NCBI RefSeq assembly: GCF_000392615.1
Contig: NZ_KB933398.1
Span: forward strand, 2,657,757 to 2,721,756
Length of the DNA stretch: 64,000 nt
Direction of reading: 5' to 3'
Origin: Lysinibacillus sphaericus OT4b.31
Lineage (GTDB): Bacteria; Bacillota; Bacilli; Bacillales_A; Planococcaceae
Each line of letters begins with the position of its first letter. Positions within the stretch are counted from its first letter, which is position 1. Below are positions 27,971 through 59,727 of this stretch, piece after piece. The notes below the pieces were generated by a model. The model was not told the DNA's origin. It was given only the letters and a program-made list of their open reading frames with translations, and made no database searches. A program made the position numbers and the translations under genes.

Positions 27971-28001
27971 ACTTGTTGCCCCTTTCCTTCTTGCCTTTAA
28001 T

Positions 28002-33033: not shown

Positions 33034-33079
33034 AAGCAGTGAAAAGTTCGATTGAATCGAACTTTTCACTGCTTTTTAT
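33034..33079. terminator. Long hairpin at the 3' end of the biosynthetic cluster
   Basis: A perfect 19-bp stem (33034-33052 with 33056-33074) and a 3-base loop. The T tract is better on the plus strand (gctttttatt) than the minus, but it is the first strong hairpin after the last cluster gene. The nearby gcactgaaaaagtc may be an IS end. Confidence 0.65.
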
Positions 33080-33170: not shown

Positions 33171-33926
33171 CTATTTTTTTACTGCTTCATACGTAAATAC
33201 CTCAGAATCATTCGTTGGATATTTATTATATTCGTAATCTGAAGAAATCGTAACATCTTTAAATCCAATATCTTGTAAAATAGCTCGAAACTCTTCTACT
33301 CCATACCACTTTAATGGGAAGATTTCTAACTCAGTGTCAATTAGTTTAGTATTTTGCCATTTCTGATATTTATTATGCGTAGTAGTAAATTGATTAATGT
33401 AATCCACATCCACTAATACTTCTTCCAAAGTTATAGAGTCACCGTCTTGATTCTTTAATACTCTAGTCGCAAGATAACCTTTCTCAAACGACTCGGGAAG
33501 GAAAGTATCCACTATTAAACGGCCTCCATCCTCTAAGTGATCGTAAAAGCACTTTAAAGCATTTAAAGAATCTTCTCTTTGATGCATTAATAGGAATGAT
33601 CCAGTCGGAATAATAATTGCTTCATATTTTTGTTCCAATGTAAAATTGCACATATTTAATGAATATAGATTTGGTGAAAGCTCTCTTTCCGCACAATTCT
33701 TTTTACATAAACTTAACATGTCATCGGAAAGATCAAAACCTTCAATGTTTAGCCCTTTTTGCAGTAGAGGTATTAAGATACGTCCATTACCAACAGCAGG
33801 CTCTAATATTCTTCCCTTAACACCTTCTAACCTTTTTAGATAATACTCTACATCACCAAATGATTTACCAATATATTTATCTATATCGTATACTTCTGTG
33901 GATAACCTTCCGTAAAAACTAATCAT
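33171..33926 (-). CDS. SAM-dependent methyltransferase (class I), cluster tailoring enzyme
   Basis: 251 residues. Motif I is RILEPAVGNGRI at about 39-50, with the acidic ribose-binding position in GFDLSDDML, and motif IV-like IIIPTGSFLL. Last gene of the biosynthetic operon, 14 bp after kamA, with RBS aggag before ATG 33926. It is separate from the methyltransferase embedded in the first megasynthase, so two different methylations are possible. The acceptor atom (N, O or C) cannot be told from sequence. Confidence 0.87.
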   Translation of the reverse strand: MISFYGRLSTEVYDIDKYIGKSFGDVEYYLKRLEGVKGRILEPAVGNGRILIPLLQKGLNIEGFDLSDDMLSLCKKNCAERELSPNLYSLNMCNFTLEQKYEAIIIPTGSFLLMHQREDSLNALKCFYDHLEDGGRLIVDTFLPESFEKGYLATRVLKNQDGDSITLEEVLVDVDYINQFTTTHNKYQKWQNTKLIDTELEIFPLKWYGVEEFRAILQDIGFKDVTISSDYEYNKYPTNDSEVFTYEAVKK

Positions 33927-33940
33927 CTCTATTCTCCTAA

Positions 33941-35329
33941 CTAAAATTTTTTTATTTTCTGTGCTTGTAGTAATTTCTTTTGTTTTAAAAGATCCCTATT
34001 TTCTCTTTTATCCTTCAAAGTCTCCGCTCCCTCTTTTTTATATCTTTCCCTTAATTTATATCGGCGAAGATTTTTTGGAATTAGACTTTTAGAAGGCTCA
34101 GGCGCTAGAAGCTTTGAAACACCTGTGGATTCATATGATTTTAAATCATAAACTTCAGAAAAATAACTATCTGCAGTACCTGGCTCATAGTTCTTTATTT
34201 CTGGATAAGAAGAAATAACGCCTTCAAAATTTCTTAAAACAAATTTCTCAGGACTCTGAGAAATTATATAATTTGGTTGTAAAGCAATCTTCCCACCACC
34301 GTCTGGGGCATCTACTACGAATGTAGGAACAGCATAGCCGGAAGTATGCCCTCTCAAAGATTCAATTATTTCCAATCCTTTAGAAATAGGCGCTCTAAAA
34401 TGACTAATACCTTCTGATAGATCACATTGATAAATATAGTATGGTCTAACCCGGGTTTTGACTAAATCATGTACTAATTTTTTCATTATCGGAACACTAT
34501 CGTTAATGCCCGTAAGAATAACAGACTGATTCCCAACTGGAACTCCAGCATCCACTAATTTTTCACATGCTTCTTTTGCTTCTTCAGTTAATTCCAATGA
34601 AGTATTGAAGTGTGTATTTAGCCATACAGGATGATATTTTTTAAAAATATCACACAATTCGTCAGTTATTCTTTGAGGAAATACTACTGGTGCTCTAGTG
34701 CCAATTCTAATTATTTCTACATGCGATATTTCTCTTAAATTACTTATAATATACTCAAGTATTTTGTCGTTAATTAATAAGGCATCTCCTCCTGATAATA
34801 GAACGTCTCTAATTTCTTCATTATTCCTAATGTAATCAAGAGCTGTATCAAGTTGCTTTTTAGGTACTGCCATTCCCACCTGTCCAGAAAACCTTCTTCT
34901 AGTACAATATCTACAATACATGGAGCATTGATTGGTAACTAAGAATAATACTCTATCTGGGTATCTATGTGTTATGCCTGGTACTGGCGAATCTTCATCT
35001 TCGTCCAATGGATCTTCTAAATCATAGTGGCTCTTAATAATTTCAGCAGATAAGGGTACAGACTGCATACGTATTGGACAACGTACATCATCTGGGTTCA
35101 TTAAAGATGCATAGTAAGGAGTTATATTCAAAGGAATCGTTTGTAGAGAAATTTTTACTCCTTCTTCTTCTTCAGCAGTCAAGTTTACAACCTTCTTTAA
35201 ATCATCTAAAGTTTTAATAGTATTCGTTAATTGCCAATGCCAATCATCCCACTGCTCTTGGGTAACATCTTTCCAAAGTTCAATTTCCCGATAATGTCTT
35301 CTTTCTCCTGGTTTAAGTTTAGTCTGCAT
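33941..35329 (-). CDS. kamA: L-lysine 2,3-aminomutase (radical SAM, PLP)
   Basis: 462 residues. Radical-SAM cluster CSMYCRYC (Cys135, 139, 142); PLP lysine Lys347 in DAPDGGGKIALQ. Asp303 (QCDLSEGISHF) and Asp340 lie 44 and 7 residues before that lysine, the same spacing as the two Asp that bind the substrate epsilon-amino group in clostridial lysine 2,3-aminomutase. That supports true lysine to beta-lysine activity rather than EpmB or glutamate specificity. It overlaps the thioesterase gene by 11 bp inside the NRPS/PKS operon, so its likely job is to supply beta-lysine to the assembly line. A housekeeping role, as for yodO in sporulation clusters, is less likely given the context. Confidence 0.93.
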   Translation of the reverse strand: MQTKLKPGERRHYREIELWKDVTQEQWDDWHWQLTNTIKTLDDLKKVVNLTAEEEEGVKISLQTIPLNITPYYASLMNPDDVRCPIRMQSVPLSAEIIKSHYDLEDPLDEDEDSPVPGITHRYPDRVLFLVTNQCSMYCRYCTRRRFSGQVGMAVPKKQLDTALDYIRNNEEIRDVLLSGGDALLINDKILEYIISNLREISHVEIIRIGTRAPVVFPQRITDELCDIFKKYHPVWLNTHFNTSLELTEEAKEACEKLVDAGVPVGNQSVILTGINDSVPIMKKLVHDLVKTRVRPYYIYQCDLSEGISHFRAPISKGLEIIESLRGHTSGYAVPTFVVDAPDGGGKIALQPNYIISQSPEKFVLRNFEGVISSYPEIKNYEPGTADSYFSEVYDLKSYESTGVSKLLAPEPSKSLIPKNLRRYKLRERYKKEGAETLKDKRENRDLLKQKKLLQAQKIKKF

Positions 35330-36113
35330 AAATCACCCCTCCTTTAATGTTAGCATAAATTTCCATTAATTCACGACTCAATTCTTTCGCAGGGGCCTCG
35401 TTCTCATTCAAGTAGAAATGACCACCTTTGAAATACTTACACTTATATTCATTTAGCGTCATTTTCTCCCACAGTTCTACTTCCTCTTCAGGAACTGCCA
35501 AATCTTGTTCACCTAACCAAAGCTCCATTGGATATTTGATGAATGCCTTATCATCAAACCTAAATGTATCAAGTAAATGAAAATCTCTTCCTGTAACATC
35601 AACTATTGAATTGAACAGGCACAAGTCAGACTCAAGCTCACTAGGAACTCCACCCAGCCTTCTAATATCTGATATAACACTTTCTCTCGTTCGCCTCGTA
35701 AAAGGAGTCTCAGGATACGTCGCATTATTAGATACAGTTATTGGCGACCTAGCAGCTGAAATAATTAATTTTTTAATATATTGACTTTTATCATCAAGTA
35801 AACTTGATAAAGCATACACAAATAATCCGCCTAAGCTATGACCAAATAAAACTGATGGACGATCAATATAAGGAGCTACGTTTTTTAGAAGATATTCTTT
35901 TGCTTCACAAAATGTAGCTTGAAAAGGCAAATCATTGGTCATTCCTCTACCAGGTAGTTCAAATAAACAAACTTCTACTTCTGAAGATAAGTTTCTTACT
36001 AAAGGAACCATTGAAAGTGCCGAACCTCCAGCATGATGAAAACATAACAATTTTAATTTTGCATTTTGATTCGGGTTATATATTAGATAGCCTTTTTCTT
36101 GTTTCATCTTCAC
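35319..36113 (-). CDS. Type II thioesterase
   Basis: 264-residue alpha/beta hydrolase of the GrsT/SrfD type: nucleophile Ser93 in FGHSLGG, catalytic His232 in KGGHFYL, Asp in the GEQD loop. Normally clears misprimed acyl or aminoacyl groups from carrier proteins; here it may also release the product, since no thioesterase domain is seen in any megasynthase. GTG start overlaps the stop of the preceding NRPS by 4 bases (GTGA); RBS aggtgg. Confidence 0.93.
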   Translation of the reverse strand: MKMKQEKGYLIYNPNQNAKLKLLCFHHAGGSALSMVPLVRNLSSEVEVCLFELPGRGMTNDLPFQATFCEAKEYLLKNVAPYIDRPSVLFGHSLGGLFVYALSSLLDDKSQYIKKLIISAARSPITVSNNATYPETPFTRRTRESVISDIRRLGGVPSELESDLCLFNSIVDVTGRDFHLLDTFRFDDKAFIKYPMELWLGEQDLAVPEEEVELWEKMTLNEYKCKYFKGGHFYLNENEAPAKELSRELMEIYANIKGGVIYAD

Positions 36114-39100
36114 AATCTATTACCACCTATTAATTTCATTGCTTCATCTACTGTAAGCTCGCCTTGTTTCACTTTTTCTAGTACTTCTATTTTGCTGTAA
36201 GATGGAGTCACACTTTCTTGAGTAGGCTTATCCTCTTTTCTAGCCGAAATTTCTTCAACAAATCGGTTGATCGTTGGATATCTGAAAAGGTCTCCAACCA
36301 CAAACTCATGCTCAGGCAATACTTTTCTAAGTAAGTTATATAATTTTAGAGCAATTAAAGAATGGCCGCCTTGATCGAATAAGCTTCGATTTAGTTGAAC
36401 TTTTTTCCCTAAAACTACTTCCCACGTCTCTCTAACAATATCAACTATATCTCCTGATATTGAAATATTTGTAGCTTCAGTTGATTGTTTTAGAAGTGCT
36501 TCAGCTTGTTTCTTTAGTGAAACTCTATCGATTTTACCATTCGTATTTCGAGGCAACTTTTCTAATGAAATAATTAAATTCGGAATAGCAAAATCAGGTA
36601 GTATCCCTGAAATGATACTAGTAATTGTCTCAACACTTTGGTTTGTTCCACTTATAAAGGCAATTAATTGATTTTCACCATTAGTATTTAGAAGACATGT
36701 GACAAAACATTCCATACCTGATTGAAGTGATAACAACGCGTTCTCCACTTCTCCTAACTCCAATCGGTAGCCTCGAATTTTTACTTGTTGATCACAGCGT
36801 CCATAAAATTCAATTACCCCATTAGCGTTTAGCCTAACTAAATCACCTGTACGGAAGTATCTAACACCATCTAAAGCATATATATTTGAAGTAGCTAAGC
36901 CATCCTCGGTTACGTATCCTTTTGTAACTTGATTTCCGCCAATGTGTAGTTCACCTATCATGCCAGGGGCTACTAAGTTACCTTTTTTATCAACAATTCT
37001 CACAATCGTTCCTGGTAATGGTTCACCTATTGGGCATAGCCCTGATTTAGAACTATCGTCATAGTTATTACATTTATAAACTAGCGACTCAATTGTACAT
37101 TCACTTAGACCATAACCATTATAGAAATTCACACCTTTCCAAAGCATGTTACAAATTTCATTCTTTTCTTCGAGTCTGAACGTATCAGAACCTACCACTA
37201 CCGTTTTTAAATCCTTTAAAACAATCTTTTCTGCATTTAAAAAGTGGATAAATTCTCTTACTAAAACAGGTGTTGATTCTAGAAATGATATATTATATTT
37301 ATCTGCTATTTCCGCTAAATATGCCATGTCAATTCTTTTATCTTCCTCGCAAATGAATAAGCATCCACTAGTAGACCATGCCTTCAATAAATCACCTAAA
37401 AAAACATCGGAGGTCCAACTCCCTAGTTGTAGAACATTTTGTTCGTGAGAGAAATTATAAAATTGCTTCCAGCTTTGCGTTAGTTGAGACAAACCTTCCG
37501 CTTTTAATGAAACTATTTTAGGTTCTCCTGTACTACCAGAAGTAGAAATATAATATGCAAAATCTTCTGAGTTAAACCTGTGAGCCTCGCTCATAATTTC
37601 TTTTTCATTAGCACTACACTCGATAATTTTTGAAATGTTATCTAGAAATAAAGACGTTTTTGGCTGCAATATTTCAAAAGTACGTTTATTTCTAGCATCT
37701 GGTGTATTCATATCAATTGCACACCACGCAGCACCTATTGTCCAAGTAGCAAAAATGCCGATTGCTGTTTCAATACTTTTCTTCCCAACTAATGCAACCG
37801 TATCCCCACTCTGTACTCCTTCTTCAAGTAATTGATTTGCCACAATATTAATACATTTTTTTAAATCTCGATAACTTAAATTTCTTTGACCGTCTGATAT
37901 AGCTAAAGAATCTTCCTTGTGACCTTCTAACATGGATTGAATAGAGAAATTTCCAAAATTTTCAGGTTGTTTTGTATTTAATACATTATTTAGATATAAC
38001 TCTTCAACTTTCGTTAAGTTCATATTTTTCACTAGCATATTATTATAGGTTTCTATATTTTCAAATATATACTCAAGGGAATCGAGTATTCTCATAAGCT
38101 CCATTTTCTCATAACGATGCTGATCCCAACCTAATCTTAAAAATAATGAATTTTGGGTAATATCAAATGTTATCGATAAAGAATCAGAGCTCGTTCCATA
38201 TTGGTGAACTAAATCACCATTCTTTTTTTTATTTAAACTTCCTTTAAAGTTTTGAAAGATAACAGACGTTTTAAAGATTTCTGAATCTCCAGATACCCCT
38301 CCAAATTGCAACAATTTAGAGTATGGAACCCCGCTGTTTTCTGAAACATCTTGTAGATAATCCATTGTCTGCAAACACACTTCTTTTAATGTCAGTTCAT
38401 CTTCAATATCTATTTTGACTGGTAAGGTGTTTATGAGCATCCCGTTCATATCATTCGACTCTATCAATTGATATGGTCTTAAAGCAAAGGTTGAACCTAC
38501 ATATAGTTTATTTGTTTGTTGATAACGATTTATCAACACTCCCCATATTGTTAAAGCTACACTTGAAGTTGTAACCCTATTTTTTATACTGTAGGCATGA
38601 AGGTTCTCTGCCGCTTTCTTACTTAACTCTTTATCTACATACATGAATAATGGCTTTTGATCAACATGTTGTGATTTTTCTATAGCCAGTGTTTCTGCTT
38701 GAGTTAAATCACTTAAAACATTTTTCCAATACTCTTCTAGTTCTTTTTTGTACGCTGAATCACTAATATAGTTTAAATAAGGTTCTATATCCGGACGACT
38801 TTCTAATGAAGTTACATCCTTGTTTAATAACTTAAAGAAATCTTCAAACGTTTGGGCAATTGACCAGCCATCCATTATGATATGATGATGCACCCATACT
38901 AATAAGTTTTTAGTTGGTTTCCAGTTATGAACGATGTAAAATTGCTGAGATTTATCCAACATAGAATGTTGTAGCCTAGCAATCTTACTTTTAAACCAAT
39001 TCTCTATATTTAAAAATTCGTCTTTAATTGTAAGAAAGTTAACCTCTAATACACTAACTTCCTCCACATTATTTTGAATAATTTGGATAGGTTCTGACTC

Positions 39101-39307
39101 ATAATCCCATTCGAACTTTGTTCTTAATGCTGGATTTGCCTTTACAGTATTCAACCAAGCGTAATGAATTTCTTCAAATGAAAACGTATTTGGAATTTCA
39201 TAAGATAGAATTTGCCAATATGCATCTGATAATGGGTCCTTTAATGTTTCCATTAACATAACCATTTGCAATGGTGTTAACGGCAATTTTTTGTCATTTT
39301 TCACCAT
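36110..39307 (-). CDS. NRPS, C-A-PCP, predicted basic amino acid
   Basis: 1065 residues. Condensation domain about 8-430 with intact HHIIMDG (141-147). Adenylation domain about 455-925: A3 STSGSTGEPK, A5 NGYGLSECT, A7 YFRTGDLV, A8 QVKIRGYRLELGE, A10 NTNGKIDR. PCP with Ser983 (DQGGHSL). The pocket residues I read by hand are D-V-G-E-V-G-G-I-E-K, very close to ornithine-type codes (D-V-G-E-I-G-S-I-D-K), so a basic substrate such as lysine, ornithine or beta-lysine is inferred. No TE or other release domain. The C-terminus carries a helical tail (EVLEKVKQGELTVDEAMKLI) like those on the PKS proteins, probably for docking. RBS gaaggaggg. Confidence 0.93.
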   Translation of the reverse strand: MVKNDKKLPLTPLQMVMLMETLKDPLSDAYWQILSYEIPNTFSFEEIHYAWLNTVKANPALRTKFEWDYESEPIQIIQNNVEEVSVLEVNFLTIKDEFLNIENWFKSKIARLQHSMLDKSQQFYIVHNWKPTKNLLVWVHHHIIMDGWSIAQTFEDFFKLLNKDVTSLESRPDIEPYLNYISDSAYKKELEEYWKNVLSDLTQAETLAIEKSQHVDQKPLFMYVDKELSKKAAENLHAYSIKNRVTTSSVALTIWGVLINRYQQTNKLYVGSTFALRPYQLIESNDMNGMLINTLPVKIDIEDELTLKEVCLQTMDYLQDVSENSGVPYSKLLQFGGVSGDSEIFKTSVIFQNFKGSLNKKKNGDLVHQYGTSSDSLSITFDITQNSLFLRLGWDQHRYEKMELMRILDSLEYIFENIETYNNMLVKNMNLTKVEELYLNNVLNTKQPENFGNFSIQSMLEGHKEDSLAISDGQRNLSYRDLKKCINIVANQLLEEGVQSGDTVALVGKKSIETAIGIFATWTIGAAWCAIDMNTPDARNKRTFEILQPKTSLFLDNISKIIECSANEKEIMSEAHRFNSEDFAYYISTSGSTGEPKIVSLKAEGLSQLTQSWKQFYNFSHEQNVLQLGSWTSDVFLGDLLKAWSTSGCLFICEEDKRIDMAYLAEIADKYNISFLESTPVLVREFIHFLNAEKIVLKDLKTVVVGSDTFRLEEKNEICNMLWKGVNFYNGYGLSECTIESLVYKCNNYDDSSKSGLCPIGEPLPGTIVRIVDKKGNLVAPGMIGELHIGGNQVTKGYVTEDGLATSNIYALDGVRYFRTGDLVRLNANGVIEFYGRCDQQVKIRGYRLELGEVENALLSLQSGMECFVTCLLNTNGENQLIAFISGTNQSVETITSIISGILPDFAIPNLIISLEKLPRNTNGKIDRVSLKKQAEALLKQSTEATNISISGDIVDIVRETWEVVLGKKVQLNRSLFDQGGHSLIALKLYNLLRKVLPEHEFVVGDLFRYPTINRFVEEISARKEDKPTQESVTPSYSKIEVLEKVKQGELTVDEAMKLIGGNRL

Positions 39308-39327
39308 CTATCAACCCTCCTTCAAAA

Positions 39328-42300
39328 TTATTTAAGTATGAGAGACATTTCTGATATTGTTGGGTGTTTCAAAAAGTCTTTCGGAGTAATTTCTATACCA
39401 TTGGTACGTAATTTGGATACTATTTGAAGAGATTTAATGGAATCTCCACCGATTTCAAAAAAGTTATCATCAATACCTATTTCGTTTTTCTTGAGAACTT
39501 CAGCCCATATCTCTACAATTGATTTTTCCAGTTTAGTTGTCGGTTTCTTAAAATTATTTTGTGCACCATCTGCGAGATATTGTGAAGCCTCTTCGCTAAG
39601 TAATTTTCGATCTCTTTTTCCACTAGATGTTAATGGTAATTTATCTAATTCAACGAACATCGACGGAATATAAGTTGCCGGCAAGTCTTTAGAGACAGCC
39701 TTTTTCAAATCGTCTCTACTTAAGCTTTCTTTTAAATTTAAAGTGTAGAAACAGACTAAACAAGGTTTCTCATTCTGATCATTCCCTAATACTACCGTTG
39801 CACCATTGACTTGTGGTTGTTGTACAACACATGCTTCAATTTCTTCTATTTCAATCCTTACACCGTTTACCTTAACTTGTGAATCCTTTCTTCCTATAAA
39901 ATCTAAACTACCATCCTCCGAAATCCGAACCAAATCACCAGACTTGTAAAAGATTTTTCCATTTCGCTCTACAAAAACTTTTCTCGTTTCAATTTTATCT
40001 TTGAAGTAACCCTTCGCTAGAGAGGGGCCTCCAATCATTAATTCTCCTGGAAAACCTTTTGGAACTGGTAGACCAGTTTCATCAATCACTTCCATCTCTA
40101 CATACGGTAATGGAAAACCAATATTATAATTTTCTTTTGTCACTTGTTGAACTGTAACTTCTATACCTGCCTCGGTTGGACCGTATAAATTGAATGCTTT
40201 AACGTGTGGTAATAATTCACTTATTTTTTTGGCTAATGGAGCAGGCAGGGCTTCACCACTTAAATGAAGATATTTTAATGGTAATTCGTAACCTTTATGA
40301 TAGTTCATTTCATTGAGCACTAATTGCAACACTGAAGGGACAAAATGACACAAGTCAATTGACTCATCATTAATGAAATTCAATAAACCTAAAGGATTAC
40401 GATGCAAATCCTTAGGAGCAACAACTAATGTAGCCCCCGTACAGATGGTATAAAATATCTCCCAAACAGATACATCGAATGTATATGGCGTTTTAAATAG
40501 CGTTTTATTACCAGGTTTAAGTATTTTTTGATTTTTTTGCCATAATATACGTAAAGAAGCCCCTAAATGTGGACATAATACACCTTTTGGTTCACCAGTT
40601 GATCCGGAGGTAAACATGAGATAGGCCGGATCATCAATAGAAACACTTCTCTTTGCTTGTGTTATGACATTATTTTCAAATTTATTTTTTTCAAGTGTAT
40701 TTATTACTTCCCATTCTCCATACGGTATCTCTTCTTCTGTATTTACAATTAAAATCTTTGGATTTAATCTGGCCAATAATTTCTGTGTTCTTGCTATAGG
40801 ATGTTCAGTATCTAAAGGAACATATACTGCTCCTACTTTTAGAACACCAAGTATTACCGCAATTACATCAATTCCCCTACTCATATAAATAGGTATATAA
40901 TCTCCTTTTTCAATACCCATTGATAGAAGTAACGAAGAATATTTTTCAGCTTCTTGATTTAGTTGTTCATATGTTAAAGTTCTATCGAGCTCTTGGATGG
41001 CAATATAATCTTTGTATTTTATTGCTGCATCTTCAAATTGGCAATGCAGTGGCTTAGCTTTTTGTAGTAGTCCCCCCTTATCATTGGAGGATATAACGGA
41101 GCCTTTAGCAAATGCAGAACTCCATAAATTATTTGGATTAGTCATTAAAGAAGCGAGCAATTTAAAATAATTCTCCGCCAACAATTGAATCTCTGCTTCT
41201 GTGAAATTAGCAAATGAATATTCTATATGACCTTTCACTTCCTCATCTTCTACATAGAAAAAGCTGCTTAAAGGAAATCTTGCTCCACCGGTATCTTGCT
41301 CAATAAAACTAGTGTTGGTATTTTTTAAATCCATTTCGAGATTCACTTTAAGACTGAATGTATTATTTACTACATCAAAATACTCTCTTTTTTCAATGTT
41401 GGCCGCAATATCAACTATTGAGAAATCACCATGAGCAATATTTTCATGTACAATATTACTTATTTCTTGCAGAAGCTCTTTAAAGGAAGCATTTTTATTT
41501 AATGTAAGCGTTAAAGGAACTAAATTAACAAACATACCTACATCATCTAAGTTTTCGTTTGACCTACCATGATAAGGAATTCCAATAGTTATTGTATCCT
41601 GCATACAATATTTTGCTAAATTTAGAGCCCATGCAGTTAGTAATATTGTAAACTTACTTAATTTCATCTCCTGTGAAAATCGATTTATTTTTCCACCTAA
41701 CCCTATGTTACTCTCTATCTCTAAAATTTTACCAATTCTTAAATATTCTTCTGATTTCTCTTTAATAGGTAATTCAGCGAGTCTAAATGTCTTAGATTGC
41801 TCAACCCAAAAATCCTTCAGATTTTGATCCTTTGATTTATTGCTTAATCTATTTATATTGTTGTATAATTTTTCGGCACTACTTGATTTCATGTCGTCTA
41901 CAGTGATTTCATCATTATAGACTTTAGATATATCTTGAAGAATATTTTTTAAAGATAATCCATCACATACTATATGATGGGATACAAGTACAAAAATGGA
42001 CCCCGAATTCTCTGTATGAATTACTGCTCCTCTAAACAATAAATCACTTTCTAACAAGAATGGTTTATTATAAATTGTTTTTGCAAGAGCGCGCGCATCC
42101 TCAAGAGTTTTCACATTAAAGATTTGAATGTGATGATTCACGTTCTCTTCTAAATCATCTGTATTTCTAATTTTTTGTTCAATCCCATAGGAGGAATTTT
42201 CTCTAAAATTCACAAAAAATGCAGCATTTTTCATAAAGCTATTAACTAAGGCTTGATAGAGTGTATGTTCATCGAACTGACCGTTGATATGAAAAGTTGC

Positions 42301-45470: not shown

Positions 45471-45512
45471 ACTATTTCCCTCCCCATGTTAAAAGTAATT
45501 ATCCTTTTCAAC

Positions 45513-49358: not shown

Positions 49359-50649
49359 TTTCCTCTCTCCTATCAAAGTCTTTAATGAATTTCAGCTGAG
49401 CGAAAATTGCGACAGTTACTATAATTAGGCCTCCAGCTAAGAGAAGCAGCGTTCCATAAACTCCTCGTTCCCCGCTACCTAAATAAGGGATAATATTTGC
49501 GTTTGAAGCAACTAATCTATCAGCAAGTACCCCTCCTAAAATATAAGCTAATGGTAAAGAAATCCAAGCTAATGTTCTAGAAATCGAAAAAACTCTTCCT
49601 AATAAATTTGGCTCCGTATGAAGTTGAATTAAAGTAAGTGTACCTGTATTAACCACTGGTAGTAATAACCCCAATCCAGCCCAAAAAACGGCAATTAAGA
49701 AAATATTATTGAATAACCCTGTTAACGTTATAAAAACACCAATACCAAAATTCGAAATCAATACTAACCATATAATGTGGGTCTTTAATTTAATAAATGA
49801 CATTAGCAATCCCCCTAATACCATTCCTCCTCCATATATAGAGCTTAATAACCCGAACTGTTCAACAGTACCAAAGCTCAATATATATGGCTGTCCAACT
49901 ACTTGATTAAACCCTAATGCAAAGTTCAAAACCGTAAACAAAAGCACTAAAGTAAGAAGAGACTTATGCTTAATTAAATAATTAAAACCCTCCTTCAAAT
50001 CATCAAAAATAGATGAATTTACATTTTTATCTTCATTATCACTGTTCTCTTTGACACTTAATTTTGTCCAAAGTATTAATAGAATAGGAATCGCAATACA
50101 GTAAGTAACTAGCTCCGCACCAATGATATAAACAATGCTTCCAAATCCCATTATTACACCACCAATAACAGGACCTAGCACATCACTAGTTGATGTTGCC
50201 ATTGAAAATACACCATTAGCTCTAGATAACTTTTCTTTCGGTACCAATAGAGGTACTAGTGTTTGTAATGCTGGCGTTTGCATAGAGCTTACTATAGAAA
50301 GCGATATAGCACCTGCAATGACATGGACCATACTTATATTCCCTAAAATAAGGGAGGAGAAAATTATTGAGGAAATAATGAGCCCAATAATATCTCCTAG
50401 TAAAATTAATAATCTAGGACCCTTTCTATCTATCCAGATTCCTACAAAAGGTGATAACAAAATTGCTGGGAGAAATCCTGCAACCAGTACTACTGCAAAA
50501 CTAGATACTTGTCCTGTACTCTGATAAGCCCAGACACCAAGTCCAAACCTTGCAACAGAAGAACCTAATAAAGAAATAAAATGAGTAGCTACAACCATTA
50601 GAAAGATTGAAAATCCGCTGCTCGTTAGTTTGCTAAAATAAGTTATCAT
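49336..50649 (-). CDS. MFS exporter of the biosynthetic cluster
   Basis: 437 residues, about twelve membrane helices, MFS_3/BacE-like drug-efflux type (LLGSSVARFGLGVWAYQ; FVGIWIDRKGPRLLI as the loop 2-3 motif). Translationally coupled on both sides: it overlaps the upstream megasynthase by 4 bases and the downstream PKS by 23. The position strongly suggests export of the product and possibly self-resistance. Confidence 0.92.
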   Translation of the reverse strand: MITYFSKLTSSGFSIFLMVVATHFISLLGSSVARFGLGVWAYQSTGQVSSFAVVLVAGFLPAILLSPFVGIWIDRKGPRLLILLGDIIGLIISSIIFSSLILGNISMVHVIAGAISLSIVSSMQTPALQTLVPLLVPKEKLSRANGVFSMATSTSDVLGPVIGGVIMGFGSIVYIIGAELVTYCIAIPILLILWTKLSVKENSDNEDKNVNSSIFDDLKEGFNYLIKHKSLLTLVLLFTVLNFALGFNQVVGQPYILSFGTVEQFGLLSSIYGGGMVLGGLLMSFIKLKTHIIWLVLISNFGIGVFITLTGLFNNIFLIAVFWAGLGLLLPVVNTGTLTLIQLHTEPNLLGRVFSISRTLAWISLPLAYILGGVLADRLVASNANIIPYLGSGERGVYGTLLLLAGGLIIVTVAIFAQLKFIKDFDRREENEVQHTV

Positions 50650-53600
50650 GTACTTTGGGGCTCCTTTGCATTTCCACTACATTCAACCAATATTTCTTCA
50701 AATTTAGATAAGAGATGATGAGCTTTTTCATTACTTATAATTTGTCTATCTACCTCTAAGCTAATATTAAGTTTCCCATCCAAAATAAATATGTTCATTT
50801 CCAAAATATTAGAAAGCTCATTGTCAGGATGAATAGCAGGAGCCTGAGGAAGATTTGGAGAATATTGTAACACTCCATTGTCTCCATTTTTACTATTTGT
50901 TGAAGTACTAATATCGTTATCAAAATCTCCTAAGTAATTGACCAATAAAGATGGTTGAATACATGTCATGTTGTTATTTTCTCTGATCCATCTTGATACC
51001 ATAAAGTCCAATCCACTACCAATTTCGCTCAACGATTTACCAACTGAGTAAAGCATTTCATCTATAGTATTTAATGACACATGTAGCGGATACATCGTCG
51101 TAAACCAACCTATCGTCCTACTAAGATCTAATGATAATTGGCGACTATCGCGTCCATGCCCTTCAAAGTTAAATAACACATCTTTTTGACCGAATATTTG
51201 ACTAAACGCTTGAGCAAACGTTACTGCAATGAGTGCATCAGGTTTGTAAAGTTCTGATTGCTTTCTTGCATTTAAAAATTGATTTGTACTTTCCTCACTT
51301 AGAAGTTTCGTTACGTGATATCGATTCTTAAATAAATAATCTTTTCTGACAGGCTGAATACATAATGGATGTACATTATTTACGTCAATAGTTTCCCAAT
51401 AAGATTGATTAATGCGTAGTTCCTCTTTATACAATTCTTCTATCCAATCTGAAAATTGCGTCATAGGGAAACTGAACTTATCTTTACCATTTACTATCGC
51501 CAAATAATTATTTTCTAATTCTTCTATTAAGACTCTCCATGAAACTCCATCAACGACTAGATGGTGAATAAAGAATGTCAAGATAGGCTTCTTAGATGTC
51601 AGGAATACTACTGCACCTATTGGTAATACCTTGCCAAAATCAAAGCTATCTTGTAATTGGAATTGAATCTTTTCAATTTCTTCTTTTAACATACTTGGAG
51701 GTATTAATTTTAAATCTTTCACTATTAGCTTAAATGTGTTTGCTAATTTCGGTTCAACAAAAGCCTTCGGTTCTGTATCTTTAACATCAAACCAAGTCAA
51801 CAAGCTTTCATTTACTGAAATGATTGATTTGAAAGACTTTTCTAAAGCAACTACATCCACTTTCTCAGGTAATTCTACTGACATTAATAAGTTCCAATAG
51901 TGTGCATGCTTAAACGACTGTTCGAAGAACCATTTTTGCATCGGAGCTAGTGGAATCTTCTTAGAACTTAACTCTTGCCATTCTTTATGAATGTCAATTT
52001 CTTTACTAGCTTTCAAAGCTATTTTTCGAATACTTCTATAATTAAAGATGTGGTTAATTTTTAAAACAATATTTTTCTCTTTTGCCTTAGAAATAAACTT
52101 TAATGCCTTAATGGAGTCTCCTCCAATTTTAAAGAAATCTGAATCTATGTTAACGTTATGATTACCTAGAATCCCTTCTAATATTGAAAGTAATTCCCTT
52201 TCCATCTCTGTCAAACTACTGATATCGTCTTTCTGAACCATCTTGTCATCGTATAATTCAGGGCTTGGAAGTGAAAGTCTATCTACTTTCCCGCTATTAG
52301 CCATTGGAATTCGCTCTATTTTTTGATAATAAGTTGGAACTAAATATTCTGGTAAATGACGTAATAGGAGTTTTTCAATATCTCTTTGATTAATCTCTTG
52401 TTGACAGACTAAGTAAGCACATAGTTGTTCACCAAATTCATTTTTATTTAATGTAACAACAGCATCTTTAACGCTTGGAACTTCTCGTAAGTATTTTTCA
52501 ATTTCTTCCAGTTCAACCCTGTGACCACGAATTTTAACCATATTATCTTTGCGACCATAACAAACAATCTTACCATTTGGTAATACTTGCCCCATATCCC
52601 CTGTCTTATATAAATATCCTGATTGTAAATGGTTAATATGATTAGCTATAAACTTAGTTCTAGTTAAATTCGGCTCTCCCAAATATCCTAAGGCAATACT
52701 TTCACCACTTAATGCAATTTCACCAACACCGTATGATGGAGCTAGTTGATTTTTATTGTTCAGAATGTAAACGGTAGTGTTGTTGATTGGTAATCCGATT
52801 GGCGCATGGATGTAATCTGAATTTAGGTCTTCTTCTGTTACTTCATGATAAATCGTTCCAACAGTAGCTTCAGTTGGTCCATATTCATTAATAATGCGAG
52901 CATTCTGGAATTTCTCTTGCAGCGCTTTACATAACGACATATCTAAAGCTTCTCCACCTAAAATAAAACACTCTACATCTGGTGAAAACCTCTCACTCTC
53001 GATTAAATACTGTATTTGTTTAGGGGTACCTTTAATCGTTATTTTGCCTTTTATATTTGATACACTTTCAAAAGTTTGATCAATTTCCCCTTCACAACAT
53101 ATTATTTTTCCTCCTGTGATTAGTGGAATAAACATTGAAGTAATTGTTAAATCCACAGATATGGAAGTGAAAAATGGCATATTTAAAGGTACATTTGTAG
53201 GTGAGTAGTATTCAGCAGCCCAATTCAAATAATTATTAAGGTTTTTACTTGAGACTACTACACCTTTAGGTTTTCCAGTGCTACCGGATGTAAAGAGAAT
53301 ATATGCTGGTGAAGTATTAGAAATGGTATTGAATTCGATTTCTAAATTTTCGTCTAGTTGAATTACATCACTTAACATATTTTTAGAGCTGCTCTGTCTA
53401 TATTTTTCTCCCTTTTCTTTAACAATGATGACAGCATCAAATCTATACTGATTTAGTTCATTGCTTACAGTATATTTTTTCTCAGAACATTCAATTTGTA
53501 TATCAGCACACACATCATTGAGAAGCTCTTTTAAGATTTCTTCGTTTATAAATAAATCTGTATCCCAATCTAATTTAGTATTCAAATCAATGTTTTCTTC

Positions 53601-56600
53601 CTTAAATGCTTTTAAAGAAGAGACAAATTCATCTTTTTTATCAATATCTAATAAATCTCCTAAGAAGATTATTCCGCCCTCTTTTAACGAGTCGATAGCT
53701 TTTTGAAGTACTACCTTTAAATAGCCGTAGCTTGGGAAACAGTGAATAACACTATTAATGACAACAGCATCTAACTCTGTTTCAAATTTATTAAAGGAAT
53801 GTGCCGTCGAAACGCTAAATTCAATATTGTTAAAGCTAGATTTCTTAGCAATTTGTCTATTCCTTTCAATGATTGATGAAGATAAATCCATTGCTGTATA
53901 CGTTCGCGCATATGGAGCAAGAGCAAAAGTTGTCAAACCTGAGCCACATCCAAGCTCTAATACGTTTGAATCTTGTGGTAAATACTCTTTTATTTTGTTT
54001 ACTGCATTCCCCACATACTCTTGCATTTCTAATGCACTGAACGCTTCACCTGTATAACTGCTATTCCAACCACTAGCCTCTATCTCCGTTTTTTGCCCTT
54101 CAGCGAAATAGTTCCACAAAGATTCGTCCATTAATTCACTTGAATCAGCAACAGCACACTGGTCTAAATCCGTTTCTCCTAACACCATAACCGATTGAAT
54201 ATTTTCATTTTCGAATAAAAGCCTATTACACAATGAATAGAATTTTTTTTCTGAAATAATAAAGTTAGCTTGACTTTGATGCATAATAGATTCAATTCTT
54301 GCTTTTGGATTTTTAGGTGATACAGGTATGAATGTGACGTTACTCATTAAACAAGATAAAATACCTAAAATTGCAGTTCTATTATTGTTAGAAATAATGA
54401 CAACATTTTTAATTTCACTGTTGCTGTTCAACAATTTACTTGCTATTGATTTACTTCTTACTATTAACTCTCGATATGTTAATGAACCTTCGTTATCTTC
54501 CAATGCTGTTTTTTCTGGGTTCGTTTCTGCCATCATTAAAATGGTATTTAAAAAGTTTTTGCCATCATCGACAAATTGACCATTTATGACACTTAGACTT
54601 CCTTCTACATCAGTATTATTTAATTCATCTTCATGTAAAATCGTATCTAGTATTTTTAAATACGTTTCAATTAATGAATTAATAAATTTAGAGGAATATA
54701 CGCTGTCATAGTACTCAAGATTACAGAATAACTCTCCATCTGGTAATTCAACAAATTCAAATTCAAGGTCCCATTTACTTGTTTTGTGTTCAGAAACAAT
54801 AGGTGTTAGTTCCGCATCGTCAAACGCTGATGTCGTATTTTTAAATTTAAAATTTTGAAGTGCCACGTTTATATTAAATAAAGGTGAACGACTAGTATCT
54901 CGAGGTAAATCTAATTTTTCCACTAATAAATCGAAAGGATATTCTTGATGTTTAAAGCTATCCAATAACACTGACTTTACATTTCTTAATAATGCAAGGA
55001 AGTCCTCATGTTCTTCGTAATTAATCCTGATTGGGATTGTATTCGTGAATAAACCAATTATTTTCTCTAATTCTTCATTCAATCTTCCAGATACCGGTGT
55101 ACCAACCACCATATCAGTATCACCAGTCATCTGATTAATAAGTTTAAATACACTTGAAACTAAAACCATGTATAACGTACTTTCTTGAGTACTTGCAAAA
55201 GATCTTAATTTATCTGCTAATGTAGCACTAATATCAAATCTCTTAATCTTTCCAGTATATTGGAAAGTGTTTGGTCTTAATTTATCGCCTGTGATTTCAG
55301 TAATAGGGAGATTTCCGCTTAATGTATGAAGCCAGTAATCTTCATGTTGTTTAAACCTACCACTTTCTATATTTTCACGTTGCCATGTAGCAAAATCTAC
55401 ATACGTATTTTCTATTGCTGGTAGGTCGTCATATAGATTATTACCACTATTGTATAAAGTGAAGAGTTCATCCGATAATAGCGATAATGACCAGCCATCT
55501 ACAATAATATGGTGCATCATTAAAGCAAAAAGACTTTTATCTTTTGCTATTTTATAAACAAGTACTCTTAAAAGTGGTCCCGTTTCTAAATCATAAGGAG
55601 TTTCTTTCCAAAGATTTATTTGGTCCATTGCTTTAGCTTCAGCATTATCTTCTAAATTAAAATCTTTATATTCAAATAAATAGTTTGGATTTTGCAGTAT
55701 TTTCTGTTTATTCCCATTCTCATACTTCACAAATATTGTTCTTAAGGACTCATGTCTCTGTGAAAGTAAATCGAATGTTTCACGTAATCTCTCATTGTCT
55801 ACTAACCCGTTAACTTTAAAGATAAACGGTGTATTGTAAACCATTTTTTGGTCTGTTAATTGTTCGATTATGCTTAATCGGTTTTGACCGTATGATAATG
55901 GATATTCAACATTTTCTGCACTTATTTGAGGTATGATTTCTGCCGATTTTAAATTTTCATTGTTTATTTGTTTACTAAGTTGTTCAAATGTAAGGAATAC
56001 ATCATCTAAAACAAAGTCTTTATTGAATTGTTTTTTCAAACGGGTAATAAATTGTAATCCTGAAAGAGAATTTCCACCTACTGATATAAAACTATCCGTC
56101 TGCTTAATATTCTCTGTTTCTAAAATTATTTCTGCTAAACTAATGATTTCTTCAAGAGTTGATTTTCCTTTTACCTCTTTAACTTTTACGCTACCTTCAC
56201 TCTGTAACCAATAAGATTTCTCGTCAAAAAAGTATGTAGGCAAAGAAATTTTAAAATTATTTTCATTCTGAAATTGTTTATGCCAACTACATTTTTCACC
56301 TAAAATATAACTTTCTGCCAAAGTTTTCGTAGTGTTATCGTTATGATTTGTCGTAATTACAATTTTTTCCCAACTGCTCATATCTTGATCAATTAAATTT
56401 TTACATGCGACTATTAGGTCATCCATTGTCTCAGCAATAATTGCCACTCTTATATCATGATGCTCTCTACCTGTACACATCGTATACGCTAAATCACTTA
56501 AATTAATCATATCTGCAGTTAAATTAGAAAAATGTTCAATAGTACCTCGCAAAGATAATTCAGATTTAGCAGAAAAAGGAATCACATAAGCTTTTCTACT

Positions 56601-58049
56601 ATTTTCTTTCTTATCGATTTCAGCTTTCTTTGGAGCTTCCTCTAATAGTAAATGTACATTTGTACCATTGAAGCCAAAGCAGCTTACACCAGCTATAATA
56701 GGTTCATTTTCTTTTTTATTTTTTTTAATGTTATATGGTAATGTCGGAATAAATACTGGCGAATTTACAAAATCAATGTGTGTATTTGGTTCAACTAAAT
56801 TTATTGTAGGTGGAACTATTCCCTTTTTTATTACATGTAGCGCTTTAATAACTCCCGATAAACCTGCAGCTCCATCAAGTAAATGCCCAATATTTCCTTT
56901 TACAGAACCAATCGGCAAAAACTGTTTATCATTGTTACTTCGTTCAATTGCTTCTTGAATGCCTTTTATCTCAATAGGGTCTCCTAAATGAGTTCCTGTG
57001 CCATGCGCTTCAATGTAGTCAATTTGCTCTGGCTTAATGCCAGCTCGATCCCAAGTTTCAGCTAATAAATCTGCATGTGCTTTAGGATTTGGTGCAGTTA
57101 TACCCGCTGAAGTACCATCATTATTTACTCTAGAGGCAATTATAACAGCATGGATATTATCATTATCTTCTATAGCTTGATTTAAAGGCTTTAATAAAAG
57201 CGCTACCGCCCCTTCGCCTCTTCCAATTCCACTTGCTGAGTCGTCAAATGGCTTACACTTTTGTTGCTCAGACATAATGCCCGCAGCATTCATAAAAAGT
57301 TTTTCACTATTTATTGGATAAGGAAAAATATTAACACCACCGACTAATGCCGTTTCACAGTCATTATTCATTAAACCTACACAAGCCTCGTGAATTGCCA
57401 ACATTGAGGAGGCACAAGTAGCATTTACTACATAAGATGGTCCTTTTAAATTGAAAATATAAGAAATTCTTGAAGCTGTAAAAGCAGGAATATTGCCCGG
57501 AACACTTAATGGTGTGAATTCATCCAAGCCTTCAGAGTAATTGGTCATAGCAGCGGAAATATAGACACCCGTATTAGAATTTTTCATACGACTCCCTGCA
57601 TAACCAGCATCTTCAAAACATTGGTATGCTGTTTGAAGAAATCTACGCTGTTGTGGGTCCATCACCTTTGCTTCAGCAGCTGAAATATTAAAAAATCCAG
57701 CATCAAATTTATCAACTTCATCTAGCCACGCTGCATCCCAAAACGGCTTCTCTTTGGATATTTTAAGCTTTTCCATATTATTAACAAGGAACCCCTCACA
57801 CAATGATTTCCTACTATCACTTAATTCTGTTATTTTGTCCTGTTCACCGCTTATAACATTCCAAAATTCATCAAAATTTTTAGCACCAGGTAATTCAGTA
57901 GAGATCCCGATAATTGCGATCTTTTTATCAACTTCCGGTTTTGAATTACTTTTAATTTCATTCACCGATTCAATGATTTGCTTTGCTGCGTTTTTTGTGA
58001 GTTCTTTATTTTTAAGAAGATTTAAAACTTGAGGTATTAATTTACTCAT
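50646..58049 (-). CDS. Hybrid megasynthase KS-ACP-C-A(MT)-PCP-E, predicted D-Asn
   Basis: 2467 residues. N-terminal docking-like helix (1-35); KS 42-470 with Cys212 (NATCASSM), His349, His389; an AT-free linker ending LPTYFFDEKSYW (about 602-614); carrier Ser661; C about 715-1130 with HHIIVDG (846-852); A domain from about 1160 with a methyltransferase inserted between motifs A2 (about 1234-1256) and A3 (YILFTSGSTGKPKG, 1583), MT motif VLELGCGSGLTTF near 1363; PCP Ser1979; E domain about 2025-2450 with HHLVVDGVSW (2162) and FEGHGRD. Hand-read pocket D-L-T-K-I-G-E-V-G-K matches asparagine codes. So the module should add Asn, possibly methylated, and epimerise it. RBS ggagg; overlaps the PPTase stop by 8 bp. 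Confidence 0.94.
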   Translation of the reverse strand: MSKLIPQVLNLLKNKELTKNAAKQIIESVNEIKSNSKPEVDKKIAIIGISTELPGAKNFDEFWNVISGEQDKITELSDSRKSLCEGFLVNNMEKLKISKEKPFWDAAWLDEVDKFDAGFFNISAAEAKVMDPQQRRFLQTAYQCFEDAGYAGSRMKNSNTGVYISAAMTNYSEGLDEFTPLSVPGNIPAFTASRISYIFNLKGPSYVVNATCASSMLAIHEACVGLMNNDCETALVGGVNIFPYPINSEKLFMNAAGIMSEQQKCKPFDDSASGIGRGEGAVALLLKPLNQAIEDNDNIHAVIIASRVNNDGTSAGITAPNPKAHADLLAETWDRAGIKPEQIDYIEAHGTGTHLGDPIEIKGIQEAIERSNNDKQFLPIGSVKGNIGHLLDGAAGLSGVIKALHVIKKGIVPPTINLVEPNTHIDFVNSPVFIPTLPYNIKKNKKENEPIIAGVSCFGFNGTNVHLLLEEAPKKAEIDKKENSRKAYVIPFSAKSELSLRGTIEHFSNLTADMINLSDLAYTMCTGREHHDIRVAIIAETMDDLIVACKNLIDQDMSSWEKIVITTNHNDNTTKTLAESYILGEKCSWHKQFQNENNFKISLPTYFFDEKSYWLQSEGSVKVKEVKGKSTLEEIISLAEIILETENIKQTDSFISVGGNSLSGLQFITRLKKQFNKDFVLDDVFLTFEQLSKQINNENLKSAEIIPQISAENVEYPLSYGQNRLSIIEQLTDQKMVYNTPFIFKVNGLVDNERLRETFDLLSQRHESLRTIFVKYENGNKQKILQNPNYLFEYKDFNLEDNAEAKAMDQINLWKETPYDLETGPLLRVLVYKIAKDKSLFALMMHHIIVDGWSLSLLSDELFTLYNSGNNLYDDLPAIENTYVDFATWQRENIESGRFKQHEDYWLHTLSGNLPITEITGDKLRPNTFQYTGKIKRFDISATLADKLRSFASTQESTLYMVLVSSVFKLINQMTGDTDMVVGTPVSGRLNEELEKIIGLFTNTIPIRINYEEHEDFLALLRNVKSVLLDSFKHQEYPFDLLVEKLDLPRDTSRSPLFNINVALQNFKFKNTTSAFDDAELTPIVSEHKTSKWDLEFEFVELPDGELFCNLEYYDSVYSSKFINSLIETYLKILDTILHEDELNNTDVEGSLSVINGQFVDDGKNFLNTILMMAETNPEKTALEDNEGSLTYRELIVRSKSIASKLLNSNSEIKNVVIISNNNRTAILGILSCLMSNVTFIPVSPKNPKARIESIMHQSQANFIISEKKFYSLCNRLLFENENIQSVMVLGETDLDQCAVADSSELMDESLWNYFAEGQKTEIEASGWNSSYTGEAFSALEMQEYVGNAVNKIKEYLPQDSNVLELGCGSGLTTFALAPYARTYTAMDLSSSIIERNRQIAKKSSFNNIEFSVSTAHSFNKFETELDAVVINSVIHCFPSYGYLKVVLQKAIDSLKEGGIIFLGDLLDIDKKDEFVSSLKAFKEENIDLNTKLDWDTDLFINEEILKELLNDVCADIQIECSEKKYTVSNELNQYRFDAVIIVKEKGEKYRQSSSKNMLSDVIQLDENLEIEFNTISNTSPAYILFTSGSTGKPKGVVVSSKNLNNYLNWAAEYYSPTNVPLNMPFFTSISVDLTITSMFIPLITGGKIICCEGEIDQTFESVSNIKGKITIKGTPKQIQYLIESERFSPDVECFILGGEALDMSLCKALQEKFQNARIINEYGPTEATVGTIYHEVTEEDLNSDYIHAPIGLPINNTTVYILNNKNQLAPSYGVGEIALSGESIALGYLGEPNLTRTKFIANHINHLQSGYLYKTGDMGQVLPNGKIVCYGRKDNMVKIRGHRVELEEIEKYLREVPSVKDAVVTLNKNEFGEQLCAYLVCQQEINQRDIEKLLLRHLPEYLVPTYYQKIERIPMANSGKVDRLSLPSPELYDDKMVQKDDISSLTEMERELLSILEGILGNHNVNIDSDFFKIGGDSIKALKFISKAKEKNIVLKINHIFNYRSIRKIALKASKEIDIHKEWQELSSKKIPLAPMQKWFFEQSFKHAHYWNLLMSVELPEKVDVVALEKSFKSIISVNESLLTWFDVKDTEPKAFVEPKLANTFKLIVKDLKLIPPSMLKEEIEKIQFQLQDSFDFGKVLPIGAVVFLTSKKPILTFFIHHLVVDGVSWRVLIEELENNYLAIVNGKDKFSFPMTQFSDWIEELYKEELRINQSYWETIDVNNVHPLCIQPVRKDYLFKNRYHVTKLLSEESTNQFLNARKQSELYKPDALIAVTFAQAFSQIFGQKDVLFNFEGHGRDSRQLSLDLSRTIGWFTTMYPLHVSLNTIDEMLYSVGKSLSEIGSGLDFMVSRWIRENNNMTCIQPSLLVNYLGDFDNDISTSTNSKNGDNGVLQYSPNLPQAPAIHPDNELSNILEMNIFILDGKLNISLEVDRQIISNEKAHHLLSKFEEILVECSGNAKEPQST

Positions 58050-58764
58050 AATATTTATCCTCCTTCAATTTCAGATTATTCAAAAACTCTTTCTCTAATA
58101 CAGAAAACTCTTTTATCTTTAGTTGTTCCTCTGACGGAAATTCATTCATTTTACTACATACAGAAATTTTATAGCCGTTAATCATGTCATATTGTTTGAA
58201 ATAATAGGTATAAGGATCAATATTTTGTTCAATTGAAATTTCATTATTAGCAGTTTCGATAGAGAAAGAATCTAAAGGAATGCTTAAACCTAATCCAATA
58301 TTTTTGACAAAAGCTTCCTTCAAAGTCCATAAATTGTAAAAATGTTCTTTTTTCATTTCAGCTGGAGTTTGAATGTATGAGTGATATTCTATACTAGAAA
58401 AGTAATATTTAATTATTTCATCATCATAATCACCTTTCATCTCTTCAATATCAATTCCAACCTCACAATTTCCTATCACACCTACGACCCATTTACCTGA
58501 ATGAGAAACGTTAAATCCAAAATCCCCATTGGTACAGTATGGTTTCCCATATGTATTCGTTCGGATATTTATTTCTGAATGATTACATTTTAAATTCTTC
58601 ATCAATAAATATTTCATTAACAATTCAGATATTAAGGACCTGTATGCGTCTATTTTATTTGAGTATGATGCTATTCTCCTTGCTTTTTTTGAACATACGA
58701 AATTCATTAATTCGGAATAATTAGAAATATCTGTAGGTACTTTAATTAAATAAATTTCTATCAC
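58042..58764 (-). CDS. Sfp-type 4'-phosphopantetheinyl transferase
   Basis: 240 residues. Activates the ACP and PCP domains of the cluster by adding phosphopantetheine. Metal and catalytic motifs VGIDIEE (Asp105, Glu107) and WTLKEAFVK (Glu150, Lys149). First gene of the operon. GTG start with ggggg about 8 bases upstream; the stop overlaps the megasynthase start. Having its own Sfp makes the cluster self-sufficient for carrier priming. Confidence 0.93.
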   Translation of the reverse strand: MIEIYLIKVPTDISNYSELMNFVCSKKARRIASYSNKIDAYRSLISELLMKYLLMKNLKCNHSEINIRTNTYGKPYCTNGDFGFNVSHSGKWVVGVIGNCEVGIDIEEMKGDYDDEIIKYYFSSIEYHSYIQTPAEMKKEHFYNLWTLKEAFVKNIGLGLSIPLDSFSIETANNEISIEQNIDPYTYYFKQYDMINGYKISVCSKMNEFPSEEQLKIKEFSVLEKEFLNNLKLKEDKYYE

Positions 58765-59684: not shown

Positions 59685-59727
59685 AAATGAGTGGCTTTTT
59701 TAATACAAAAAACAGGCCTAGTACCTG

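Follow-up and report, generated by a model that had tools for sequence, protein, structure and literature searches.

The window, the 64,000-nucleotide stretch of Lysinibacillus sphaericus DNA analysed here, contains a ten-gene NRPS/PKS operon (33171-58764, minus strand) that is real, intact and conserved, and that belongs to a known kind while combining its parts unusually. The most interesting points are a constrained KR-like domain that has no catalytic Tyr, a lysine 2,3-aminomutase (KamA) bound to the cluster, and a junction after Ser at which no E domain is found. The label of an unrecognised system, under which the operon was introduced in the preliminary description of this DNA, is too strong, as its components are of established types and it has a distant sister cluster.

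In our best explanation, to which we assign a probability of about 0.58, the operon is self-contained, and its product is a small cationic peptide-polyketide that it also exports. The phosphopantetheinyl transferase (PPTase) would presumably arm the carriers, the 1633-aa NRPS would start the chain with Leu and then add Ser, and the 1065-aa NRPS would add a basic residue, most likely beta-lysine from the cluster's KamA. The 1287-aa and 2467-aa PKS modules would each contribute one malonate unit from the discrete AT, and both ketides would probably stay ketones, given a KR without the catalytic Tyr. The last module would incorporate Asn, which would be methylated by the inserted methyltransferase (MT) and epimerised by the terminal E domain. 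Either the stand-alone thioesterase would then release the chain, or the unreduced beta-diketo chain would attack the Asn thioester in a tetramic-acid-type closure; a second, free MT may add a methyl group, and the MFS protein would export the product. In this scheme the amino acids are predictions read from sequence codes, whereas we infer the module order, the choice of beta-lysine over lysine, the release chemistry and the methylation sites. Predictions of the scheme are a cationic product ([M+H]+ of ~527-573), KamA dependence and unreduced ketides. For Leu-Ser-(beta-)Lys-ketide-ketide-Asn, the calculated [M+H]+ values are 545.2930, 559.3086 and 573.3243 for the linear chain carrying zero, one and two methyl groups, and 527.2824, 541.2980 and 555.3137 for the corresponding forms that have lost water by ring closure.

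Gene content, conservation and distribution

A single operon of ten same-strand genes, most of them overlapping, had been proposed previously, and all ten ORFs were verified on the minus strand with unchanged coordinates; 6 of the 9 gene junctions overlap, and the remaining three are gaps of at most 42 bp. In order of transcription, the genes (all coordinates refer to the window, minus strand) encode an Sfp-type PPTase (240 aa, 58042-58764; PF01648 and PF22624, with NCBIfam matches mostly below cut-off), a 2467-aa megasynthase with the domains KS-ACP-C-A(MT)-PCP-E (50646-58049), an MFS exporter (437 aa, 49336-50649, start codon ATG), a 1287-aa PKS module KS-KR-like-ACP (45513-49376), a discrete malonyl-type AT (413 aa, 44229-45470), a 1633-aa NRPS A(Leu)-PCP-C-A(Ser-like)-PCP that is the presumed initiator (39328-44229), a 1065-aa NRPS C-A(basic)-PCP with a C-terminal docking-like tail (36110-39307), a stand-alone, type II-like thioesterase with intact motifs (264 aa, 35319-36113), KamA (462 aa, 33941-35329) and a class I SAM methyltransferase (251 aa, 33171-33926). 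Pfam and NCBIfam searches gave matches for every named activity, several of the NCBIfam matches scoring under the family cut-offs (e.g., PPTase), and thus back the earlier domain list, including its Sfp PPTase, MFS exporter, type II thioesterase and methyltransferase; the E domain was separated from C domains by motif and tree. The discrete AT, likewise named earlier, scored 272.2 bits against the TIGR00128 cut-off of 260.9 and carries the motif GHSLGE. With KS modules that lack a cis AT and a discrete malonyl AT, the layout is that of a trans-AT PKS. The KS of the 2467-aa protein (56610-57938) has intact active-site motifs, and the best PDB matches of the KS domains were mixed, PksJ and PksL included (sequence comparison with the PDB, no KS tree).

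Transcription from one sigma-A promoter had also been proposed. The putative -35/-10 pair TTGACT-17-TAATAT (58887-58915, minus strand) is common to all four relatives that carry the cluster, but promoter-like matches near the operon start did not exceed chance (8 found vs. 6.2 expected). A hairpin search found a 19-bp terminator-like hairpin 3' of the last gene (33034-33074), and a stem with the AAAAGTTCGATT core of this hairpin occurs downstream of the cluster in 4 of 4 relatives, despite their different flanks. Neither a resistance gene nor a regulator was noticed among the ten genes, and the GC content of the cluster is 31-35% in 2-kb windows.

The same ten genes were found in all four relatives (G004, G011, G020 and G031), with amino acid identities of 81-93%. 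When 39 of the 46 window ORFs of at least 100 aa were compared to 60-kb stretches around the cluster (tblastn, E 1e-10; the G004 contig ends ~6 kb past the cluster on one side), ten matched in all four relatives, one (18819-19202) matched in one, and 28 matched in none. The ten genes thus recur as a unit at a site with other flanks, and the cluster boundaries are therefore sharp. In L. fusiformis ATCC 7055, L. fusiformis Juneja 3 and L. sphaericus 2362, the PKS is present at 87-88% identity. In the relatives the cluster occupies one common site, the left flank of which (taken from G031) matches contig C7 of the window genome up to ~20,163, where other genes follow in place of the cluster; the right flank of the G031 site gave no match on contig C7 in a search run without a positive control. 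The cluster has therefore either changed its location or been acquired independently. Immediately 5' of the operon, in a region in which the window departs from the four relatives, lies a fragment resembling the start of an IS3-type transposase (59499-59630, minus strand, within ~59160-59700; identified by eye, HTH_28 E 0.04, below cut-off).

Among 61 genomes of relatives, the window's own included, the full-length PKS (at least 87% identity) was found in 5 of the 32 genomes of the genus and in none of the 29 others. At E <= 1e-150, it was found in one of 398 phylum-wide genomes (two first-look candidates scored per genome), namely the window's own, and in 3 of 39 genomes of the family of genome G134, where only G134 was prominent (720 bits, 33% identity). 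Among plasmid records, 1018 had PKS matches to the 1287-aa protein and 87 had matches to its KR-like part, all below 60% identity. Pairwise comparison of the window to G020 and to G031 over 24 segments yielded dN/dS values of 0.04-0.24 in 24 of 24 segments in both comparisons, that is, all domains tested are under purifying selection. The lowest values were those of the KS of the 2467-aa protein (0.044 and 0.065), the KR-like domain (0.058 and 0.060) and KamA (0.060 and 0.063). The operon is compact, complete and conserved, and occurs in culturable bacteria.

No published description of the ten-gene cluster was found among the literature matches listed (open-licence literature), in agreement with the earlier statement that no Bacillales product with this gene set is known, and the cluster is not described in the available portions of PMC9867215, PMC11166776, PMC5100339, PMC12735944, PMC3744684, PMC11355689 and PMC8857237. 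A 16-kb NRPS/PKS cluster has been reported for L. sphaericus KCTC 3346, according to the part of the source available, and a 2016 survey of Bacillales counts PKS and NRPS clusters of L. sphaericus and L. fusiformis without describing them in the accessible text; the ten-gene cluster may be among those counted. The ice-nucleation PKS-NRPS of L. parviboronicapiens combines a cis-AT iterative KS-AT-DH-KR-ACP with an Orn-Cys NRPS, as given in the excerpts of PMC8857237. It resembles the window cluster in being a Lysinibacillus PKS-NRPS operon with a PPTase and a separate thioesterase, but domain comparison shows that the window cluster does not have this architecture, and no kamA or interrupted A domain is described for the ice-nucleation cluster in those excerpts.

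The sister cluster, substrate codes and KamA

In genome G134 (47.7% GC), which belongs to another family, we identified a related cluster (contig C2, ~129,470-161,630; loci L086, L068 and L069). Its gene order is MFS, FAAL-C-A-PCP, C-A-PCP, C, A(Ser)-PCP-E, C-A(Orn)-PCP, KS-KR-ACP, AT, KS-ACP-C-A(MT, Asn)-PCP-E and P450, where FAAL, MFS and P450 were named by eye from the sequences, and its identity to the window cluster is 33-45%. The two clusters share the core A(Ser)-PCP, C-A(basic)-PCP, KS-KR-ACP (with Cys in place of the catalytic Tyr), discrete AT and KS-ACP-C-A(MT, Asn)-PCP-E, as well as similar docking-like tails, whereas G134 differs by the FAAL and two extra upstream amino acid modules, the E domain after Ser, an ornithine code and the P450. 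No homologue of KamA, the thioesterase or the free MT was detected in the 120 kb of G134 searched with the domains of the window. KS identity is 45% between the 2467-aa protein and its 2522-aa counterpart and 39% between the 1287-aa protein and its 1290-aa counterpart; the KS of the 1290-aa protein is, however, closer to the KS of the 2467-aa (43%) and 2522-aa (48%) proteins than to that of the 1287-aa protein, and the two KS pairs are therefore not cleanly orthologous. The G134 cluster itself appears to be an uncharacterised lipopeptide-polyketide line.

The adenylation codes of the window cluster are DAWFLGNVV (Leu), DVWHHSLIE (Ser-like), DVGEVGGIE (basic) and DLTKIGEVG (Asn), given the residue meanings that we assume for such codes, and are identical across the five orthologues; they were aligned to the Leu domain, with position 278 set by eye at an alignment gap. 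The corresponding codes of G134 are DVWHFSLVD (Ser), DVGEIGSID (Orn) and DLTKIGEVG (Asn). The specificities predicted previously, namely Leu, Ser, a basic residue and Asn, thus agree with the codes. The code of the 1065-aa protein is nearest to the ornithine code of G134, and specificity for beta-lysine is not readable from it.

That the cluster has its own lysine 2,3-aminomutase, as claimed earlier, is borne out by the KamA protein, which scored 632 bits against the AblA equivalog cut-off of 525.4 (NCBIfam) and fell below the cut-offs for the other aminomutases (478 vs. 650 for Glu and 411 vs. 600 for Arg). Residues 14-423 align with the lysine 2,3-aminomutase 2a5h (564 bits), and the motifs QCDLS, VDAP and GGGK are retained; we take DLS/DAP to hold the lysine-binding Asp residues and GGGK the PLP lysine. 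KamA thus matches bacterial KamA/AblA in sequence, motifs and length, but here it is encoded inside an NRPS/PKS operon. Homologues were found in 142 of 398 Bacilli genomes (E <= 1e-60; best 78% identity outside the genus), and of the 28 kamA loci fetched from outside the cluster, not one had NRPS/PKS domains within 1.5 kb. Streptothricin and viomycin are antibiotics that contain beta-lysine, which is supplied by a dedicated aminomutase; the likeness of the operon to these systems lies in the supply of beta-lysine, whereas the assembly line is different.

It is possible, although rather unlikely, that beta-lysine from KamA is not a building block, the 1065-aa protein loading ornithine or lysine and KamA serving a side role, e.g., osmolyte supply. 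The closeness of DVGEVGGIE to DVGEIGSID would fit this reading, as would G134, in which kamA lies only elsewhere (contig C23). However, the two codes differ at 3 of 9 positions, and kamA evolves with a dN/dS of 0.06. Furthermore, in the genus kamA occurs in 5 of 32 genomes, the same five that carry the PKS; it lies within the operon in all five, and the search gave no match in the remaining 27.

Module order, the Ser junction and chain release

For chain assembly, we consider the order 1633 -> 1065 -> 1287 -> 2467 to be supported by the gene order of G134, in which the shared core can be read as a biosynthetic sequence, and by the docking-like tails, which are alike in the two clusters: the net charges of the 1287-aa C-terminus and the 2467-aa N-terminus are -7 and +3 (-8 and +2 in G134), whereas the 1065/1287 pair shows little charge contrast (0 and -2; -1 and -1 in G134). 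The sequence evidence thus supports the predicted order Leu-Ser-(beta-Lys or Lys)-malonate-malonate-Asn.

Against this best explanation stand, besides the unreadable beta-lysine specificity and the negative result for a resistance gene and a regulator, a DCL-type C domain after Ser with no E domain ahead of it, which leaves the junction unexplained, and a terminal E domain without an acceptor C domain. A tree built from 84 C and E domains places the strongly diverged 1065 C domain (37988-39307) within the D-accepting clade with a support of 100/98 but on a long branch; this clade has 14 rows, that is, 12 of the 13 labelled DCL, the 1065 C domain and the C domain of G134. A script derived the labels from the domain context, and the tree shows a few of them to be clearly wrong: two rows labelled 'LCL' group with the E clade, one labelled 'E' lies among LCL, one labelled 'LCL' lies beside DCL, and one labelled 'DCL' pairs with the C domain of the 1633-aa protein on a very long branch. 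The tree omits near-copies from G176 and G144 (for G144, its first region), the orthologues from G031 and, except in G134, C domains bearing the label 'first'. Because long branches were flagged for three of the four window rows (1065 C, 1633 C and E), we added a profile test, which also omits rows G108_-1_7505_2820, G108_-0_11821_900, G213_-2_8798_1933 and those of G261. In leave-one-out calibration, DCL domains scored +225 to +414 bits and LCL domains -444 to -175 bits; against these ranges, the 1065 C domain is weakly DCL (+53 to +64 bits in the five orthologues) and the C domain of the 1633-aa protein is weakly LCL (-46 to -57 bits).

Carrier motifs of the GGDSI type were found in 24 of 25 carriers that precede an E domain, and in 1 of 35 carriers that precede a C domain and have a parsable motif. 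The Ser carrier of the 1633-aa protein (39331-39552) has GGDSI, yet no E domain follows, whereas one is present in G134; an E-domain query of the window genome (E <= 1e-35) matched only the cluster's own E domain. The simplest reading of these sequences would be that the Lysinibacillus line lost an E domain after Ser. At this junction, an E domain may act in trans, or the modules may work in a different order. If an E domain was lost, the junction is a test case for the evolution of C-domain stereochemistry and of carrier motifs after such a loss.

In an alternative order, the 2467-aa KS would take over Leu-Ser from the 1633-aa protein for extension by one malonate and D-Asn, the 1065-aa protein would accept D-Asn through its DCL-type C domain and add the basic residue, and the 1287-aa protein and the thioesterase would come last. 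This order would explain the DCL ancestry of the 1065 C domain and give the otherwise acceptor-less E domain an acceptor, and a stand-alone thioesterase is at hand. We nevertheless judge it unlikely, since the related DCL C domain of G134 comes after the Ser-PCP-E protein, and since the docking-like tail of the 1287-aa and 1290-aa proteins would go unused while the 2467-aa and 2522-aa proteins end without one.

With the 2467-aa protein placed last, the assembly line probably ends in the E domain (50685-51992; in the E clade of the tree, motifs by eye), without a fused TE domain; the domain search gave no TE match in the synthases. A beta-diketo chain attached to Asn is chemically predisposed to Dieckmann-type closure, and we infer that such a release might operate in this operon. 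Of the D-Asn module described earlier, the Asn code and the position of its E domain in the E clade hold up, with the correction that this domain is probably the terminal one.

The Asn-type adenylation domain (52245-54587) is interrupted by an MT (53385-54137) inserted between motifs A2 and A3, with both halves of the A domain kept. The nearest solved sequence to the insert is 5wmm (60.7 bits; entry named 'NRPS'), which we take to be TioS. At E <= 1e-25, the inserted MT has matches in 22 of 398 Bacilli genomes, of which two are copies of the cluster; outside the genus the best identity is 44%. Among the systems with an MT between A2 and A3 in the available part of PMC11355689, TioN and MarQ S-methylate and TtcC and TtmB N-methylate, and no Asn-type member is named there. 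Because both S- and N-methylation occur at A2/A3, the position of the methyl group on Asn cannot be read off; the interrupted A domain claimed earlier is borne out. The free MT (33171-33926) belongs to a family that is widespread in Bacilli, with matches of E 1e-30 or better in 54 of the 398 genomes, including two cluster copies; its best match outside the genus is 58% identical, and it matches daptide methyltransferases weakly (86.8 bits vs. a cut-off of 175). As a candidate partner of KamA it was rejected, as none of the 13 loci fetched outside Lysinibacillus has kamA within 1.5 kb.

The KR-like domain and the neighbouring peptidase

The preliminary description listed a KR in the 1287-aa protein, but this domain (46047-46919) is probably not a ketoreductase. 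In comparison to the solved KRs MlnE (5d2e) and PksJ (4j1q) and three KRs from other genomes, the catalytic Tyr is replaced by Cys in 5 of 5 orthologues and likewise in G134, and HxAG is replaced by V-K-Q-L-Y in all five orthologues and by I-K-D-I-Y in G134. The substituted residue, Cys-1061 (codon 46194-46196), was confirmed at the DNA level. Among the fetched loci, Tyr is present in 7 of 9 distinct parsed motifs and Cys in the two from these clusters, where 3 of the 7 Tyr motifs are near-copies from one genus and three further matches without a parsable motif were excluded. An AlphaFold model of the region (four sequences) had a mean pLDDT of 33.5. With the catalytic Tyr lost, both ketides are probably unreduced, as far as sequence can indicate, and the combination of strong constraint with loss of the catalytic residue suggests that the KR-like domain has another role, structural or chemical. 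With its dN/dS among the lowest in the cluster and the same change present in a distant line, the domain offers a clean case for asking about the function of KRs without Tyr.

It is quite unlikely, in our estimate, that the domain still reduces its substrate through other residues, e.g., K-1002/Y-1005 at the former HxAG, which would leave a hydroxyl in the product: the cofactor motif GGTGYLG is retained in the five orthologues, dN/dS is ~0.06 and [VI]K[QD][LI]Y is common to both clusters, but the catalytic Tyr and HxAG are lost in all copies seen, and the cofactor motif itself is altered in G134. Apart from reduction, a speculative and doubtful proposal is that the domain is a repurposed catalyst, with Cys for Tyr and a new K/Y pair, that acts on the ketone after the basic residue, e.g., by closing the side-chain amine onto the ketone to give a cyclic enamine or imine, with ornithine in one lineage and lysine or beta-lysine here. 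If this were true, the two clusters would be members of a small assembly-line family spanning two bacterial families, with a Ser-basic-ketide-ketide-Asn core and an E domain at the end.

Colibactin, zwittermicin and xenocoumacin are D-Asn prodrug systems. It is highly improbable that the operon makes a prodrug of this type, activated by the neighbouring ClbP-like S12 peptidase (547 aa, 29454-31097, minus strand): an Asn and E module is present and the peptidase matches ClbP (3o3v, 187.3 bits) and, including the membrane part, 7mdc (223.7 bits; entry named beta-lactamase, which we take to be ClbP, also from the matching letters), but relatives of the peptidase (E 1e-40) occur in 27 of 32 genomes of the genus (21 of 32 at 61% identity or more), it adjoins the cluster only in the window and is unlinked to it in the other four carriers, and the Asn module apparently follows a KS-ACP and not a starter C domain. 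The C domain before Asn (54615-55928), which follows the KS-ACP, groups with LCL domains in tree and profiles (reference set without starter C domains) and is sister to the G134 C domain (100/100). Elsewhere in the window, 25188-28102 (minus strand) encodes an AraC-type regulator that carries a fused periplasmic-binding-protein domain (Btr-like, below cut-off) and adjoins a binding protein of the iron-siderophore type.
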